A stretch of DNA of 64,000 nucleotides from Verrucomicrobia subdivision 6 bacterium (GTDB lineage Bacteria; Verrucomicrobiota; Verrucomicrobiia; Methylacidiphilales; Verrucolacustridaceae): assembly GCA_947466515.1 (NCBI GenBank), contig CANIEM010000001.1:1-64000 (forward strand), read 5' to 3'. This document shows, one piece after another, positions 59,824-64,000 of this stretch. The position numbers and the translations under genes are program-made. Numbering within the stretch: the stretch's first letter is position 1; each line of letters opens with the position of its first letter. The notes under the pieces are model-generated. The model ran no database searches. It was not told the DNA's origin and worked only from the letters and a program-made list of their open reading frames with translations.

Positions 59824-60129
59824 GTGAAAAGTGGCACGATCGAATTACCGACAGAAAGCCCGACGCAAGAGGCTGACTTTTCGGAGGCTTTTGCCAAGGG
59901 GTGGCGGGTGCTGGTCTGGAATGATCCGATCAACCTTATGAGCTATGTGGTTTTCGTTTTTCAAAAAGTATTAGGTTTCGATGAGCCCAAGGCGAAAAAG
60001 CATATGTTGGAGGTGCATGAGCAGGGGCGGAGCATGGTGGCGATGGAAACGCGGGAAAAGGCGGAGATGTACTGCCAGCGGTTGCAGGAGTTCGGTTTAA
60101 AATCAACTTTGGAGGTGGCGCCCGCATGA
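59824..60129 (+). CDS. clpS: ATP-dependent Clp protease adaptor ClpS
   Basis: 101 residues. After a disordered tail, WRVLVWNDPINLMSYVVFVF holds the N-degron pocket (Asn-Asp-Pro), and HMLEVHEQGRSMVAMETREKAEMY completes the fold. ClpS delivers N-end-rule substrates to a ClpA/ClpC unfoldase. The start is GTG at 59824. Its stop overlaps the next gene as ATGA. No clpA is next to it. Confidence 0.93.
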   Translation: MKSGTIELPTESPTQEADFSEAFAKGWRVLVWNDPINLMSYVVFVFQKVLGFDEPKAKKHMLEVHEQGRSMVAMETREKAEMYCQRLQEFGLKSTLEVAPA

Positions 60130-60617
60130 GGGTGAGTCAGGAGGGAACTGGGGATAGGCAAATTGAGTTTGCGGCTCCTGAGGCAGCACTTTTGCGGCAA
60201 GCGTTGCAGAGCACGGTGGAGGCGTATGAGACTGATCCAAGCGAGTTGGATCCGATGGTGGGGAATGCTTGGTATGGGCAGGCAGGTTTGCGGGAGGCGG
60301 GGATTCGTGGGGAGGATGCGGTGCATTGGGTGGCAGGCTTGCACGAGGCGCGGATGGGGAGAGGAGCGGCGATGAAGAGTTGGCTCAAGACGTTGCCTCC
60401 AGTTGGGCAAGCGGGGCGGTGGATTTTGCCGAAAGACGAGGTGGAATCTTTTTTGGCGACGTGCAATGACCATCGGTTAAGGCGGGCGGCCGAGTTCGAT
60501 TTGGGAGAGGGAGACTTGGAAGTGAGGGCAATGGAAAGGGCCAAAGGGGATAAAAGAATCGCCTTAGTGGAAGTTCATTTCCTGGCCTGGATAATTGAAC
60601 TCATTCTTCATGAATGA
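60126..60617 (+). CDS. ClpS-coupled protein of unknown function
   Basis: 163 residues, mainly helical and acidic, without a signal peptide. It overlaps the clpS stop by four bases (ATGA), so it is made together with ClpS. I do not recognise the family. In Actinobacteria a DUF2017 gene commonly follows clpS; a loose resemblance (helix-rich, FLATCNDHRLRRAAEFDL, LVEVHFLAWIIELIL) and equal position make it a possible analogue, but this is weak. Confidence 0.6.
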   Translation: MRVSQEGTGDRQIEFAAPEAALLRQALQSTVEAYETDPSELDPMVGNAWYGQAGLREAGIRGEDAVHWVAGLHEARMGRGAAMKSWLKTLPPVGQAGRWILPKDEVESFLATCNDHRLRRAAEFDLGEGDLEVRAMERAKGDKRIALVEVHFLAWIIELILHE

Positions 60618-60690: not shown

Positions 60691-61965
60691 ATGAACAAAC
60701 GTACCAATGTGATTGTGGTGGGGGCTGGGCCAGCAGGATGTGCCGTGGCTCGTGCTTATGCTATGGCTGGGCGGTCGGTGGTTTTACTGGAAGCAGAGCC
60801 GGAAGGAAAAAGTCGCAAGCGTTTTGCGGGGGAATGGCTCCATCCTCAGGGGGTCGATGCGCTGAAGAAACTAGGATTTGGTTCGATTACATCGATGCAG
60901 GGGCGGCCGCGAGGGCGCGGTTTTGTGGTTTATCCTGGGCACGGCGAATCTCCGGTGAAGCTCGACTACGTGCAGGGTCAGCTCGGTTTGGCTTTTCATC
61001 ACGGAGATTTGGTAGACGAGATGCGTCAGATGGTCGCAACGACAGATGGCGTAACTTTTCGCCACGGAGTGAGAGTAGCTTCGGTAGATGATGAGGGGGT
61101 TGTTTTGGAAGGTGGAGAAAGGCTGGAAGCAGGAATTGTGGTGGGTGCAGATGGTCGGTCGAGTGTTGTTCGGCGAAGTTTACGAGGGGCGACTTCCCAT
61201 AAGCCGATGTCTGCCATGACCGGGATTTTGCTCGAAGGGGTGAAGGCGCCCTATCCTGATTACGGTCACGTTTTTTTAGGAAAGCCTAGTTTTCTTCTTG
61301 GGTACGAGATTGCTCCTTCGGTGGTGAGGATATGTGTAGACGTACCCCTAAAATATAAAGCAGAGATGAAAGATCCGGAATGGTTGATTGCGGCGACGCG
61401 CGAGACCTTGCCTCCCGTTTGGAGGCAGCCGTGTGAACAGCAGATTCGTGGTGGGCATTTGCGCTGGCAGGCGAATCACTTTTTGGCTCGGGCCGATTAT
61501 GGGAATGGGCAGCGAGTTTTGATTGGGGATGCGGCGGGTCACACTCATCCTCTGACGGCTACGGGAATTACCAATGGATTGGTCGATGCGATTGAGTTAG
61601 TCGAGACAGCCAATTTTCAGGCTTTTGCCAAAAGCCGGCGTCGGGCTTGCCGAGTGCCAGAGCTGCTCTCTCGTGCGCTTTATGATTGCTTCTCGAAAGA
61701 GGATGCCTTCTCTAATTCGCTACGGCGGGCGGTAGTTTCGCTTTGGCGCAGCGATGAAAAGGAGCGGGAGCGGACGATGGGTCTGCTGATGGGCAATGGC
61801 CGTTCCTTCCTTACTTTTGCTGGACCGTTTCTGCGGGCGTTGCTTGGGGCTTGGAGAGGACGGGACAAAAGCACGACGGTGGGTGCGGATATTGCTTCGA
61901 TTGCGAGTTGGATTCGGTTGCCGATGGCGTATGCGATGGCGGGTTGGGTTCGTCCTAAAGCATAA
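60691..61965 (+). CDS. Squalene epoxidase-like FAD monooxygenase
   Basis: 424 residues. GAGPAGCAVARAYAMAG (11-16 is GxGxxG) with VVLLEAEPE is the dinucleotide fold; GADGRSSVVRR (152-) is the DG motif; and GDAAGHTHPLTATGITNGL (GD at 279-280) strongly echoes the GDAxNxRHPLTGGGMT motif of squalene epoxidase. Squalene epoxidase adds one oxygen to squalene with FAD and NADPH-derived electrons, giving 2,3-oxidosqualene. A cyclase with a DCTAE motif is convergent 45 bases away, which supports that substrate. Geranylgeranyl reductases share the fold and are the main alternative. The C-terminus is hydrophobic, as expected for a membrane-bound enzyme. Confidence 0.8.
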   Translation: MNKRTNVIVVGAGPAGCAVARAYAMAGRSVVLLEAEPEGKSRKRFAGEWLHPQGVDALKKLGFGSITSMQGRPRGRGFVVYPGHGESPVKLDYVQGQLGLAFHHGDLVDEMRQMVATTDGVTFRHGVRVASVDDEGVVLEGGERLEAGIVVGADGRSSVVRRSLRGATSHKPMSAMTGILLEGVKAPYPDYGHVFLGKPSFLLGYEIAPSVVRICVDVPLKYKAEMKDPEWLIAATRETLPPVWRQPCEQQIRGGHLRWQANHFLARADYGNGQRVLIGDAAGHTHPLTATGITNGLVDAIELVETANFQAFAKSRRRACRVPELLSRALYDCFSKEDAFSNSLRRAVVSLWRSDEKERERTMGLLMGNGRSFLTFAGPFLRALLGAWRGRDKSTTVGADIASIASWIRLPMAYAMAGWVRPKA

Positions 61966-61988
61966 ATTCTTCGCAACAAAGGGTTCTA

Positions 61989-62006
61989 CTCAGATTCGTT
62001 TCTGAG
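61989..62006. other. Short hairpin between convergent sterol genes
   Basis: CTCAGA (61989-61994) pairs with TCTGAG (62001-62006) around a 6-base loop, in the 45-base gap between the two convergent genes. No long T-run follows on either strand, so it is at best a weak bidirectional terminator. Confidence 0.35.
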
Positions 62007-62010
62007 GAGT

Positions 62011-63954
62011 TTAGGATTGGAGGAAAGTAGCGAAGGCTTTGAGTGGGAAGGCTCGTTTGTAATGGTCGTAGCGGATGAGGGTGGTCCGATAAAAAAGCCC
62101 AGGAATCGGTTGAGGCGGAAAATCTCCATCGGCTTGTTGGGTTTTGAGAAGAAAATCCAGTCCTCTGATCACGGCAGGATCATCCTTCGGTCCTGTGGCG
62201 AGAAGGGCGATAACCGCCAACGCGGTGGGCTCAACCAAACCCACCTCACTCGGAATCGGTCGACGTTGCAGGCAAGAGTCTGGATGCTCGCCCCATCCAC
62301 CGTCGGCGAGCTGTTGGGAGAGAAGAAAATTACGCCCTCGAACTATTCGAGGGTCGTGAATGGGAAGGCCAGCTGCCAGGAGGCCTGGAAGGGCGAACGA
62401 GGTTCCATAATTAAAGCAGATGCCCCAGACCGCTTCCCAAGAGCCGTCCTGTTTTTGGGTGTTGGTTAAATAACGGATGCCGTGCTGAATGGCTCGATCG
62501 ACCGCGGTGGATTCCATTTCGGGAAACTTTTTTTGCACCAAGGCCAACGCCGCAAGAACCGATCCGGTGCACTCGGCGTACGAGTGATCGACCATGATGT
62601 CGGCGAAGACGTGGGAGGCGTTAAAGATTTCAATCCAAGAAGGGCCGATGACTCGGTCGCAACTGCCCCAACCTCCGTCCCGGTTCTGGTAGCTGAGGAT
62701 AAAATGGAGTCCGTCGGTAATGATCTTTGCAGAGATGGGCTGAGGAAGAAAAGGAGTGGCCTCGACTAGGGCGAGGATACTTTCGGCGGTGCAATCGGCA
62801 ATGGACCAACCATTGCGACGTTCGCTGAAAGGCCAACCTCCTTTGCGGGGAAGGCGATGGTAGCGGCGGGGGGAAGGTAGTTCATCGATCACCTGATTTT
62901 CGACAAGATAACGGCAACCGTTTTCGATTCCCTTACGGGGTGCTAAGTTTGAACCTAGAAGGTTCATCCCCTGTAGGGTGAAAGCGGTGTCCCAGACTTT
63001 GGAGGAGGTGAACCCCTGACACGCGGTGTATGCGGGAAATTGCCAAAGGTATCGAGGCAGTTCGCGCCAACTGCGATCGAGGAGTGCGGTCTTACCTTCG
63101 ACGAAATGGGCTAAGGTGTTGTAGCAGGCATTAACGGGGGCTTGGCGGGTAAAATCAGACTGCTCGTCCTCGTAGACGATGTGTTCGTATGTGAGGCGGA
63201 TGGCTTTTTTGCGCAGAAAGGAGGGGATCCATTTTTCTAGGATACGAACAGCAGGCATGATGAGGCGGACGACGAGGGTTTCTGGGACGATATGGTCGGT
63301 AGGGGCGAGATCGGCGCGATGCTGGGGCCAGTCGATCGTCTCGAATCCTTGCGGATAAAGTTCGGTGCGGAGTTGGAGGAGAATGGGATCGAGAGGAGCT
63401 TGCCAACGGCGTCCGTAGAAATAGGCCATAGGAAGATAAACAATTCGGACATAGCCAGAGATATTCGCGGGATGGATCGGAATCCATTTTGGCAAAAGAT
63501 AGAGTTCGGGCGGGACTGGGGTGACTCCCTCCCATGAGTAGAGGTTGAGGATGGAGAGAATAAATTTTCCCCAAGCAGCGGCTTTGATGGGAGTTCCAGA
63601 GGTGTGGATCCAGGTGCGGAGTCGGGCGAGTTCATGGCGTTCTGGTTTTTCTCCGAGCAGACGAAGGGCGACGTAGGAGATGGCACTGGTAAAGACGGCC
63701 CCGCGGACCGATTCCTCGTGAAGACCGATGGAGCCGTCGGAGATTTGGGGCTGGAGAAGACCTGCGACAAATCTTGGCCGATCTTTTTTTGAAATGGGTC
63801 GTTGGGTGAGGTAGGCGGTAATGACGTAGAGCGGGAGAAGAAAGTTGGGTCCGGTGTAGGGAACGCACCAACTCCCGTCGGCGATTTGGGTGCGCTCGAG
63901 AAAACCGAGAAGGCGACGGGTGGCTTGGGTTACGGAATCGTGGCGAGTGGTCAT
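62011..63954 (-). CDS. osc: Oxidosqualene cyclase (sterol-type triterpene cyclase)
   Basis: 647 residues. The catalytic acid motif is DCTAE (387-391) within GWSIADCTAES; this is the oxidosqualene-cyclase form. Squalene-hopene cyclases have DxDD. TYEHIVYEDE and SSKVWDTAFTLQGM also match oxidosqualene cyclases, and QW-type repeats occur (IADGSW, DGGWGSC, DGSWEAVWGICFNYGT, DGGWGEH). Product should be a protosterol-derived tetracycle (lanosterol, cycloartenol or parkeol). Around the active site Phe315, Asn381 and Ile385 fall at the positions that differ between lanosterol and cycloartenol synthases. It is somewhat shorter than eukaryotic enzymes. The squalene-epoxidase-like gene is convergent with it. 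Confidence 0.9.
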   Translation of the reverse strand: MTTRHDSVTQATRRLLGFLERTQIADGSWCVPYTGPNFLLPLYVITAYLTQRPISKKDRPRFVAGLLQPQISDGSIGLHEESVRGAVFTSAISYVALRLLGEKPERHELARLRTWIHTSGTPIKAAAWGKFILSILNLYSWEGVTPVPPELYLLPKWIPIHPANISGYVRIVYLPMAYFYGRRWQAPLDPILLQLRTELYPQGFETIDWPQHRADLAPTDHIVPETLVVRLIMPAVRILEKWIPSFLRKKAIRLTYEHIVYEDEQSDFTRQAPVNACYNTLAHFVEGKTALLDRSWRELPRYLWQFPAYTACQGFTSSKVWDTAFTLQGMNLLGSNLAPRKGIENGCRYLVENQVIDELPSPRRYHRLPRKGGWPFSERRNGWSIADCTAESILALVEATPFLPQPISAKIITDGLHFILSYQNRDGGWGSCDRVIGPSWIEIFNASHVFADIMVDHSYAECTGSVLAALALVQKKFPEMESTAVDRAIQHGIRYLTNTQKQDGSWEAVWGICFNYGTSFALPGLLAAGLPIHDPRIVRGRNFLLSQQLADGGWGEHPDSCLQRRPIPSEVGLVEPTALAVIALLATGPKDDPAVIRGLDFLLKTQQADGDFPPQPIPGLFYRTTLIRYDHYKRAFPLKAFATFLQS

Positions 63955-64000
63955 TTCTTAGCGCCTAATTTTGCCAGACGAGCGATTGTTTCTGTGCGAA

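Follow-up and report, generated by a model that had tools for sequence, protein, structure and literature searches.

What is made by an enzyme pair, consisting of a cyclase and a flavoprotein, in a bacterial genus of fresh and brackish waters that includes 'Verrucomicrobia subdivision 6' MAGs? The first-pass annotation had read the two neighbouring genes as oxidosqualene cyclase (OSC) and squalene epoxidase (SQE), and had inferred that the organism makes a cyclic sterol precursor. The window, that is, the whole stretch of 64,000 nucleotides analysed, comes from a MAG that is 87.8% complete with contamination of 0.03%. Both open reading frames were recovered where that annotation had placed them, within the following set of features:

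59824..60617, plus strand: clpS and DUF2017 genes upstream of the epoxidase (conserved context)
60691..61965, plus strand: predicted squalene epoxidase (squalene monooxygenase), 424 aa (Pfam SE, human SQLE, OSC-adjacent and OSC-fused SQEs)
60721..60738, plus strand: GAGPAG FAD-binding motif, residues 11-16 (translation, alignment A3)
61150..61155, plus strand: DG motif, residues 154-155 (invariant in alignment A3, 13 sequences)
61525..61557, plus strand: GD.....HPLT motif, residues 279-289 (alignment A3)
62011..63954, minus strand: OSC by sequence scores, trees and fold, 647 aa, a divergent genus-specific form
62782..62796, minus strand: DCTAE catalytic acid motif, residues 387-391, corresponding to human D455 and C456 (translation, alignment)
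63951..64000, minus strand, continuing to C1:64805: PIG-L/LmbE-type de-N-acetylase, 284 aa, the gene upstream of the cyclase, of which the end falls in the window
C1:64802-65296, outside the window: GtrA-family membrane protein, upstream of PIG-L

The epoxidase and cyclase genes are convergent, tail to tail, with 45 bp between them, and they do not form an operon. The PIG-L gene overlaps the start of the cyclase by 4 bases and the PIG-L/GtrA/cyclase neighbourhood is conserved in the genus; clpS and DUF2017 are probably not part of the pathway. Judged by GC content (0.549 in SQE, 0.550 in OSC and 0.551 in the window), there is no signal of recent transfer.

Identity of the two enzymes

As judged from sequence and fold comparisons, the cyclase is an OSC and not a squalene-hopene cyclase (SHC). 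Both Pfam SQHop_cyclase domains, C and N, match it (5.5e-48 and 5.7e-44), and in phmmer searches human lanosterol synthase reaches 447 bits (1.1e-132) against 113 bits for SHC. It scores 722 bits with a profile of 46 bacterial OSC rows from outside the genus and 277 bits with a four-row SHC profile, whereas for the SHC encoded by the same genome the order is reversed (267 and 968 bits). The fold is likewise nearer to human OSC 1w6k (E 3.5e-48, TM 0.95, 1.9 A) than to SHC (1.2e-30). Phylogeny had been named beforehand as the analysis in which an SHC affinity would come to light; in the tree the split from SHC is supported by 100/100 and the cyclase falls on the OSC side, nested among bacterial OSCs in a 16-row clade (100/99) that unites the genus with OSCs from Myxococcota and Verrucomicrobiota, from one Spirochaete and from two MAGs, one of them gammaproteobacterial and the other unassigned. 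Among NCBIfam models, TIGR03463 gives 546 bits and the hopene cyclase model 202 (cut-off 431). The TIGR03463 score is below the cut-off of 851 bits and is the lowest of nine bacterial OSCs, but this cut-off is not diagnostic, because seven of the eight other bacterial OSCs also miss it (688-742 bits), only that of Corallococcus lying above (893); failure at this model was therefore dropped as a sign of non-membership. Taken over sequence scores, NCBIfam, profiles, fold and tree, SHC identity is ruled out.

The catalytic residues agree with this assignment. The DCTAE motif noted earlier is confirmed residue by residue (D387, C388, T389, A390 and E391). Equivalents of human D455, C456 and C533 are present in 12/12 genus rows, where the five SHC rows show D, D and either I or L, and the equivalents of W387, F444, W581 and F696 are also kept in all 12. 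The DxDDTA motif of SHC is absent from the window cyclase, which reads IADCTAE, whereas the separate SHC of the genome has DIDDTA. Human lanosterol synthase has the same fold as the genus cyclase, and the two agree in the catalytic Asp, in both cysteines and in the principal aromatic residues; the human enzyme differs in overall sequence (about 36% identity), in the region before human residue 83, which is unmatched, and in positions 232, 503, 381, 449 and 453, all of which are different.

The flavoprotein is best read as a squalene epoxidase, in keeping with the earlier annotation. Pfam SE (PF08491) matches it with 75.4 bits (5.2e-21, cut-off 20.1), which by itself is weak evidence because the E. 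coli and Caulobacter control genomes are matched too. However, human SQLE is its nearest solved structure both by sequence (96 bits, 2.4e-26, the next chain at 37) and by fold (E 2e-28, the next molecule at 9e-21), and profile A3, which includes other SQEs, gives SQLE 339 bits against 112, with geranylgeranyl reductase (GGR) 3oz2 at 62. The protein groups with OSC-adjacent and OSC-fused SQEs. The reported FAD-binding, DG and GD..HPLT motifs are all present, G279, D280, H286 and P287 being invariant in alignment A3 and L288 and T289 nearly so. FHHG and GE.L.P.G are common to the flavoprotein and human SQLE, and the flavoprotein has blocks of the type GHVFLG..S..L.Y in common with other SQEs.

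The altered active site of the cyclase

The OSC of this genus is new in two respects: it lies on a very long stem, and both H232 and Y503 (human numbering) are replaced. Four replacements stand out within the active site:

63451..63453, minus strand: Y168, replacing human H232 (Y in 12/12 genus rows, H in 47/48 other OSC rows)
62659..62661, minus strand: C432, replacing human Y503 (C in 12/12 genus rows, Y in 47/48 other OSC rows)
63457..63459, minus strand: S166, replacing human W230 (S in 12/12 genus rows, W or Y in 48/48 others)
63010..63012, minus strand: F315, replacing human T381 (F in 12/12 genus rows and in 1/48 others, a plant; Y in 38/48 others)

H232Y and Y503C are each found in 19/19 genus genomes with sequence covering the site (the window and 18 more), whereas bacterial OSC loci outside the genus have His at 232 and Tyr at 503 in 62/62 cases (46 + 16), as does the human enzyme. 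G579A and W654L are further changes; the V453 equivalent is Ile, as in cycloartenol-type OSCs, and Ile also occurs in 35/48 other OSC rows. A role in placing the late cation and in bringing the cyclisation cascade to its close is ascribed to H232 and Y503, together with W230 and the usual Tyr at 381, and we take the His 232 and Tyr 503 pair as the mark of the canonical protosteryl OSC class, an assumption with which the 62-locus pattern agrees; the genus rows, having Y and C, lack this signature. Since both residues are replaced, the enzyme may well make something other than a protosterol. The claim that the organism makes a cyclic sterol precursor is therefore not borne out in that wording, a sterol precursor being only one possible product of the pair.

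The nearest OSCs in the trees, from Myxococcota and other Verrucomicrobiota (L060, L062, L085 and L104), are 38-43% identical and have the catalytic Asp-Cys, and in L085 and L104 an epoxidase adjoins the OSC as in the genus. However, they keep W230, H232, Y503, G579, W654 and Tyr at 381, where the genus residues are S, Y, C, A, L and F. The sole other row without both H232 and Y503 is plant TwOSC1 (8j5z), a pentacyclic triterpene synthase: it agrees with the genus at 232 (Tyr) and 381 (Phe), but has Trp at 503, keeps W230, G579 and W654, and is 35% identical. This likeness is probably convergent, because the plant enzyme takes a separate, long-branched position in the tree. Most residue-to-product rules were derived from mutants of yeast and plant enzymes and cannot safely be carried over, and no rule for position 232 emerged from the literature consulted. 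According to PMC11951148, non-canonical plant OSCs did not go over to canonical products in the mutants tried.

In the careful tree the genus stem measures 1.61, whereas the next OSC stem, at 0.88, is little more than half as long; a larger quick tree gives 1.82 for the genus. The acceleration is specific to OSC: the mean distance to 12 outgroup rows, window minus L104, is +1.87 for OSC and -0.48 for SQE. It is clear against L104, L085, L067, L082 and L084 (+1.6 to +2.5) but slight when the comparison is with the long-branched L117 (+0.66) or L120 (+0.20), while SQE is not slower in every comparison (+0.93 against L082). OSC branch lengths are themselves unstable, with the distance from the window to L104 being 4.35 in a reduced quick tree and 2.54 in the careful one. 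Purifying selection on the cyclase is strong in the genus: omega is 0.04-0.08 in 15/15 pairs of six genus sequences, the more distant pairs being close to saturation at synonymous sites; for SQE the two pairs computed gave 0.035 and 0.047. Under purifying selection and with both residues gone, the genus OSC is a natural test of the roles of H232 and Y503.

Distribution and the probable product

OSC is found in 21/21 genus genomes and in 0/41 others of the order (cut-off 1e-60), and PF08491 matches are likewise found in 21/21. SQE adjoins OSC in 19/21; in G019 adjacency is not assessable, and in G009 the epoxidase match is on a different contig from the OSC fragment, with none in the sequenced stretch after OSC. 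Outside the genus an epoxidase match lies inside 29/62 OSC loci, many of which have incomplete flanks, and is fused to OSC in four. As the genus genomes are 63-96% complete, a single absence proves little, but 21 together weigh more.

The genome searches proposed in the first-pass annotation returned matches to SQS_PSY (squalene/phytoene synthase) in 21/21 genus genomes and almost none to the demethylase families. CYP51 was not found in the 21 genomes; a P450 occurs in one of them, is not CYP51-like and has BioI, PksS and CYP267B1 as its best structural relatives. Among families of C-4 demethylation, Rieske matches in 1/21 (a 765-aa ORF in G013) and FA_hydroxylase (ERG3/25-type) in 0/21. Neither single match is in the window's genome, and a role in the pathway for one or the other is still conceivable, as is C-4 demethylation by an enzyme of some other, so far unrecognised family. 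That genome also has HpnC/D/E-like genes, HpnH and an SHC (C9:38156-39109), which belongs to the same superfamily as the window cyclase, both matching the SQHop_cyclase Pfams, but passes the hopene cyclase cut-off with 672 bits. The genome thus encodes a bona fide SHC, and therefore hopanoids are expected too.

We consider it rather probable that the two genes work as a pathway to a non-canonical C30 3-hydroxy triterpenol. Squalene would be supplied by the HpnC/HpnD/HpnE-like enzymes and epoxidised by the flavoprotein, with O2 and FAD, to 2,3-oxidosqualene; the D-C acid of DCTAE would then open the epoxide in the cyclase and the folded chain would yield a polycyclic 3-hydroxy C30 alcohol. This alcohol is probably not lanosterol or cycloartenol, because H232, Y503, W230 and the usual Tyr381 are replaced together and fixed in the genus; candidates are parkeol- and protostadienol-like triterpenols, dammarane-type ones and pentacyclic ones, for example of the arborane type. 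The alcohol would likely be an end product, located in the membrane beside hopanoids, because sterol-modifying enzymes of recognised kinds, acting at C-4, C-14 or C-5, are missing from nearly all genomes. A narrower proposal is that a bacterial sterol-type cyclase has changed in this genus, without any connection to the plant enzymes, into a synthase of non-sterol triterpenols (dammarane-type or pentacyclic, e.g. arborane) that makes the organism's end product; this proposal is tentative and seems on balance doubtful.

Ordinary bacterial protosterol synthesis, in which lanosterol, parkeol or cycloartenol is made and the pathway stops there, has an appreciable chance while being unlikely overall. 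A protosterol pathway that stops at the cyclase product is described for Gemmata, and the retained acid motif, most of the aromatic cavity residues and the widely shared Ile at the V453 equivalent are consistent with such a product. Banta in 2017 is said to have described an arborinol-type OSC in Eudoraea adriatica. According to PMC4919349, OSC and SQE with few or no other listed sterol genes are a known bacterial pattern (Eudoraea, Fluviicola), the table row of E. adriatica holding OSC, the epoxidase and no other gene. The joint loss of H232 and Y503 against 62/62 loci, together with W230S, F at 381, G579A, W654L and the long genus stem, argues against ordinary protosterol synthesis.

It is improbable that the flavoprotein is GGR- or UbiH-like and that squalene or some other polyprenoid is the substrate of the cyclase. 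The top NCBIfam models do point that way (GG-reductase subfamily 71.7 bits, cut-off 158.8; UbiH/UbiF/COQ6 67.7, cut-off 224.65), though all remain below cut-off, and a GGR homologue is required for cholesterol in Myxococcota according to PMC12004948. However, no GGR-named chain matches at E 0.001, fold ranks 1-3 are all SQLE with no GGR among the best 50 matches listed, the OSC keeps the epoxide-type acid and C533, and the only second PF08491 match above 24 bits in the genus is one of 36 bits in G012; with the SQLE scores, profile A3 and shared motif blocks given above, GGR identity is disfavoured. An assembly contaminant or a decaying gene is more improbable still, and very unlikely because the genes are conserved over 21 genomes: the source is an incomplete MAG and the public records of two relatives (L047, L050) bear names that are implausible, but the same locus and gene order recur in other MAGs of the genus, the GC content of both genes equals that of the window, contamination is minimal, and the low omega speaks against decay.

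Possible lipid record and neighbouring genes

When found in sediments, protosteroids and oxygenated polycyclic triterpenoids serve to trace eukaryotes, plants and oxygen. The genus would be a new possible bacterial source of such triterpenoids, because SQE and OSC candidates are present in 21/21 genomes, demethylase families are nearly absent and the active site is unlike that of the 62 loci. If the narrower proposal of a remodelled, non-sterol synthase is true, the genus would be a candidate source of the orphan 3-oxygenated triterpenoids of lake sediments, e.g. isoarborinol, and bacteria would have contributed to the rock record polycyclic triterpenols retaining C-4 and C-14 methyl groups. 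An OSC in a Verrucomicrobia genome has already been reported (Wei 2016, PMC4919349). In the literature searched, no title or opening of an abstract treats OSC in this lineage, which Banta 2017 and Hoshino and Gaucher 2021 may mention, and the match for isoarborinol in lakes concerns plant fossils.

The triterpenol is perhaps conjugated through the neighbouring PIG-L and GtrA genes. PIG-L orthologues are found in 17/39 OSC-less relatives of the order (41-50% identity, best match per genome), and at eight of these OSC-less loci, covering a few kb each, no GtrA, SQE or OSC homologue was found. Neither PIG-L nor GtrA is matched at any of the 62 OSC loci outside the genus, many with incomplete flanks, and in G002 both SQE and OSC are present although GtrA and the first part of PIG-L are missing. 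These observations weaken the idea that PIG-L and GtrA were part of a transferred sterol cassette, and their coupling to the cyclase is therefore a genus-level recruitment at most.

The two enzymes and their identification

The first-pass annotation had placed a squalene epoxidase (SQE) and an oxidosqualene cyclase (OSC) side by side, and its coordinates for both genes, together with their motifs, hold under open reading frame (ORF) calls and alignments.

60691-61965, + strand: flavoprotein (SQE), 424 aa, preceded by clpS and DUF2017
62011-63954, - strand: cyclase, 647 aa, facing the SQE gene

Against solved structures (phmmer), the cyclase scores 447 bits with human lanosterol synthase, 394 with the plant chain 8j5z and 113 with squalene-hopene cyclase (SHC). 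The NCBIfam oxidosqualene cyclase model ranks first at 546 bits, which is below its cut-off of 851, as is the score of seven of the eight other bacterial OSCs tried; the hopene cyclase model gives only 202 bits (cut-off 431), and is passed at 672 bits by the second cyclase of the same genome, on contig C9. A profile of 46 bacterial OSC rows from outside the host's genus gives 722 bits, and a four-row SHC profile 277. Of 348 confirmed relatives the best 80 were compared, including 18 from the genus, so that more distant OSCs lie outside the comparison. Our chosen 65-row set consists of the window, 11 further genus loci, 46 of the 62 non-genus loci, the human and plant enzymes and five SHC sequences; the 16 non-genus loci omitted were fusions, fragments or near-copies. 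The genus cyclases nest within bacterial OSC both in the quick tree of this set and in a bootstrapped 36-row tree, where the OSC/SHC split is supported at 100/100 and the 16-row clade containing them at 100/99. The predicted cyclase model (mean pLDDT 88.4) matches human OSC with a TM of 0.95 at 1.9 A, and plant TwOSC1 and SHC rank behind.

The best Pfam family of the flavoprotein is SE (75.4 bits), which also matches E. coli and Caulobacter among 14 control genomes, and in NCBIfam geranylgeranyl-reductase and UbiH-type models come out on top, all below cut-off. The sharper tests of sequence, fold and tree agree on a squalene epoxidase: human squalene epoxidase scores 96 bits among solved structures, the next chain 37; it takes ranks 1 to 3 in the fold search; and the flavoprotein groups at 100/97 with nine others, either encoded in OSC loci (records L067, L075, L085, L104, L117) or fused to OSC (L115, L118, L120, L123), the fine order being unsure because several long branches converge under a midpoint root only. 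Each apparent fusion is one ORF of 1114-1115 aa with matches to both enzymes; two are in Chloroflexota MAGs, the others in Calothrix and Rivularia.

L115:957-4304: fusion ORF
L118:6609-9953: fusion ORF
L120:6573-9920: fusion ORF
L123:6573-9920: fusion ORF

In a Polyangiaceae MAG, a 1141-aa ORF directly 5' of OSC matches the epoxidase in part (L067:4484-7909).

Active site and divergence of the genus cyclase

Among 108 columns conserved at 90% or more in 48 other OSC rows, the commonest residue of the genus deviates in 16, including those of H232 and Y503 (human numbering), which form a functional pair in human OSC. His232 and Tyr503 are present in human OSC and in all 62 non-genus bacterial loci among the best 80 of 348 relatives (46 aligned, and the 16 initially omitted checked afterwards), whereas the genus has Tyr at 232 and Cys at 503 in all 19 genomes with sequence covering each site. 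Both residues are lacking in only one further row, plant TwOSC1, where Tyr and Trp take their places and position 381 is also Phe. The genus is altered at W230, G579 and W654 as well; it retains the acid D455-C456 with C533, and W387, F444, W581 and F696.

The stem of the genus is the longest OSC stem in both trees, with 1.82 changes per site in the 65-row tree and 1.61 in the 36-row tree (next 0.88), absolute lengths being tree-dependent (window to L104, 4.35 in a 34-taxon set and 2.54 in the 36-row tree). Over 34 shared taxa, distances to 12 outgroup rows exceed those of the L085 and L104 proteins by 1.6-1.9 for the window OSC but fall short of them by 0.5-0.6 for its SQE, so in this comparison only the cyclase shows an excess. 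It is small against L117 (0.66) and L120 (0.20), and against L082 the window SQE is longer as well (+0.93). Among genus members, strong purifying selection acts on the cyclase. Taken together, the replaced residues, the long stem and this selection read as a past change of function that has since been conserved.

Epoxide opening by the DCTAE motif followed by polycyclisation is very likely the reaction performed. Because the H232/Y503 pair is lost, our best estimate, with somewhat better than even confidence, is that the product would be other than canonical lanosterol or cycloartenol; a conventional protosterol, from a cyclase which does retain the acid and the residues listed with it, is the less likely product.

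Distribution and pathway context

OSC is found in 21 of 21 genus genomes (in some as fragments) and, at 1e-60, in none of the 41 other genomes of the order, all 62 of which were searched; in a phylum sample of 387 genomes only the window's own passes 1e-70. The best 80 of 348 relatives include at least four further OSC-bearing Verrucomicrobiota records (L078, L085, L104, L110). Among named matches, the top ones are MAGs entitled 'Verrucomicrobia subdivision 6 bacterium' or simply Verrucomicrobia; Lanier, K_Offshore_surface and BACL9 appear in the titles and point to lakes and the Baltic Sea. Given the further records, and since Wei et al. (2016; PMC4919349) report a single Verrucomicrobia genome among the 34 that have OSC, OSC in Verrucomicrobia is already known, and what stands out is the genus-wide form. 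Two records titled Akkermansia muciniphila (L047) and Candidatus Paceibacterota (L050) are genus MAGs by OSC identity (80% and 78%) and probably mislabelled.

Squalene/phytoene-synthase matches occur in all 21 genus genomes, mostly three each. In the window's genome, two lie near SHC and an HpnG-like gene, one of them fused to an HpnE-like part.

C9 (L034:5116-11151) and C11:22681-23634: hopanoid set in the window's genome

The set comprises SHC and, named by sequence and SQS_PSY matches, an HpnC-like protein, a 775-aa protein resembling HpnD fused to HpnE, and a nucleosidase of the HpnG type, with HpnH elsewhere; 19 of the 21 genus genomes score above the cut-off for HpnH. The search for sterol modifiers covered P450, Rieske and FA_hydroxylase families. 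It returned a P450 in one of 21 genus genomes (nearest BioI, PksS and CYP267B1, not CYP51), a Rieske match in one, and FA_hydroxylase (the ERG3/ERG25 kind) in none; the window's own genome has no match to any of the three. The host is therefore expected to make hopanoids too, and the oxidosqualene branch appears to stop at the cyclase product or at a tailoring step outside the families searched.

Conservation of the gene neighbourhood

The window ends within a conserved locus. The OSC start shares 4 bases with the 3' end of a PIG-L-type de-N-acetylase gene, which in turn overlaps a GtrA-family gene by 4 bases, both lying almost entirely past the window; these overlaps suggest translational coupling.

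L033:3952-5297 (window's genome): GtrA, PIG-L and OSC reading frames, overlapping by 4 bases each

Nineteen of the 21 genus genomes have SQE adjoining OSC: 18 from one locus set, and G004 from genome searches. G009 has no SQE in the available stretch beside OSC, and in G019 the contig stops before the SQE position. A PIG-L match adjoins OSC in 17 of 21 loci, shortened in G002 and, in G011, broken into two ORFs; G008 and G013 have it with an OSC start fragment on another contig, and the remaining two (G009, G010) are not judgeable. GtrA is present in 14 of 21 and missing in G002, the contigs or loci of the others stopping first. The SQE/OSC pair of G002 (L042:797-2186) has no GtrA beside it and only a PIG-L without its N-terminal portion, through either a deletion or an assembly error.

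Outside the genus, PIG-L orthologues give no link to OSC, and that these neighbours conjugate a triterpenol is a guess we consider improbable. In the OSC-less relatives the orthologue stands beside other genes (L139:4125-6482, L137:422-2733); in L139 a nearby ORF resembles, by eye over its first residues only, glucosamine-6-phosphate deaminase, which would suit an amino-sugar role. Past the window on contig C1, the + strand carries a 2030-aa ORF (L033:8606-14698) with, as judged from sequence, a subtilisin-like N-terminal part and C-terminal repeated stretches.
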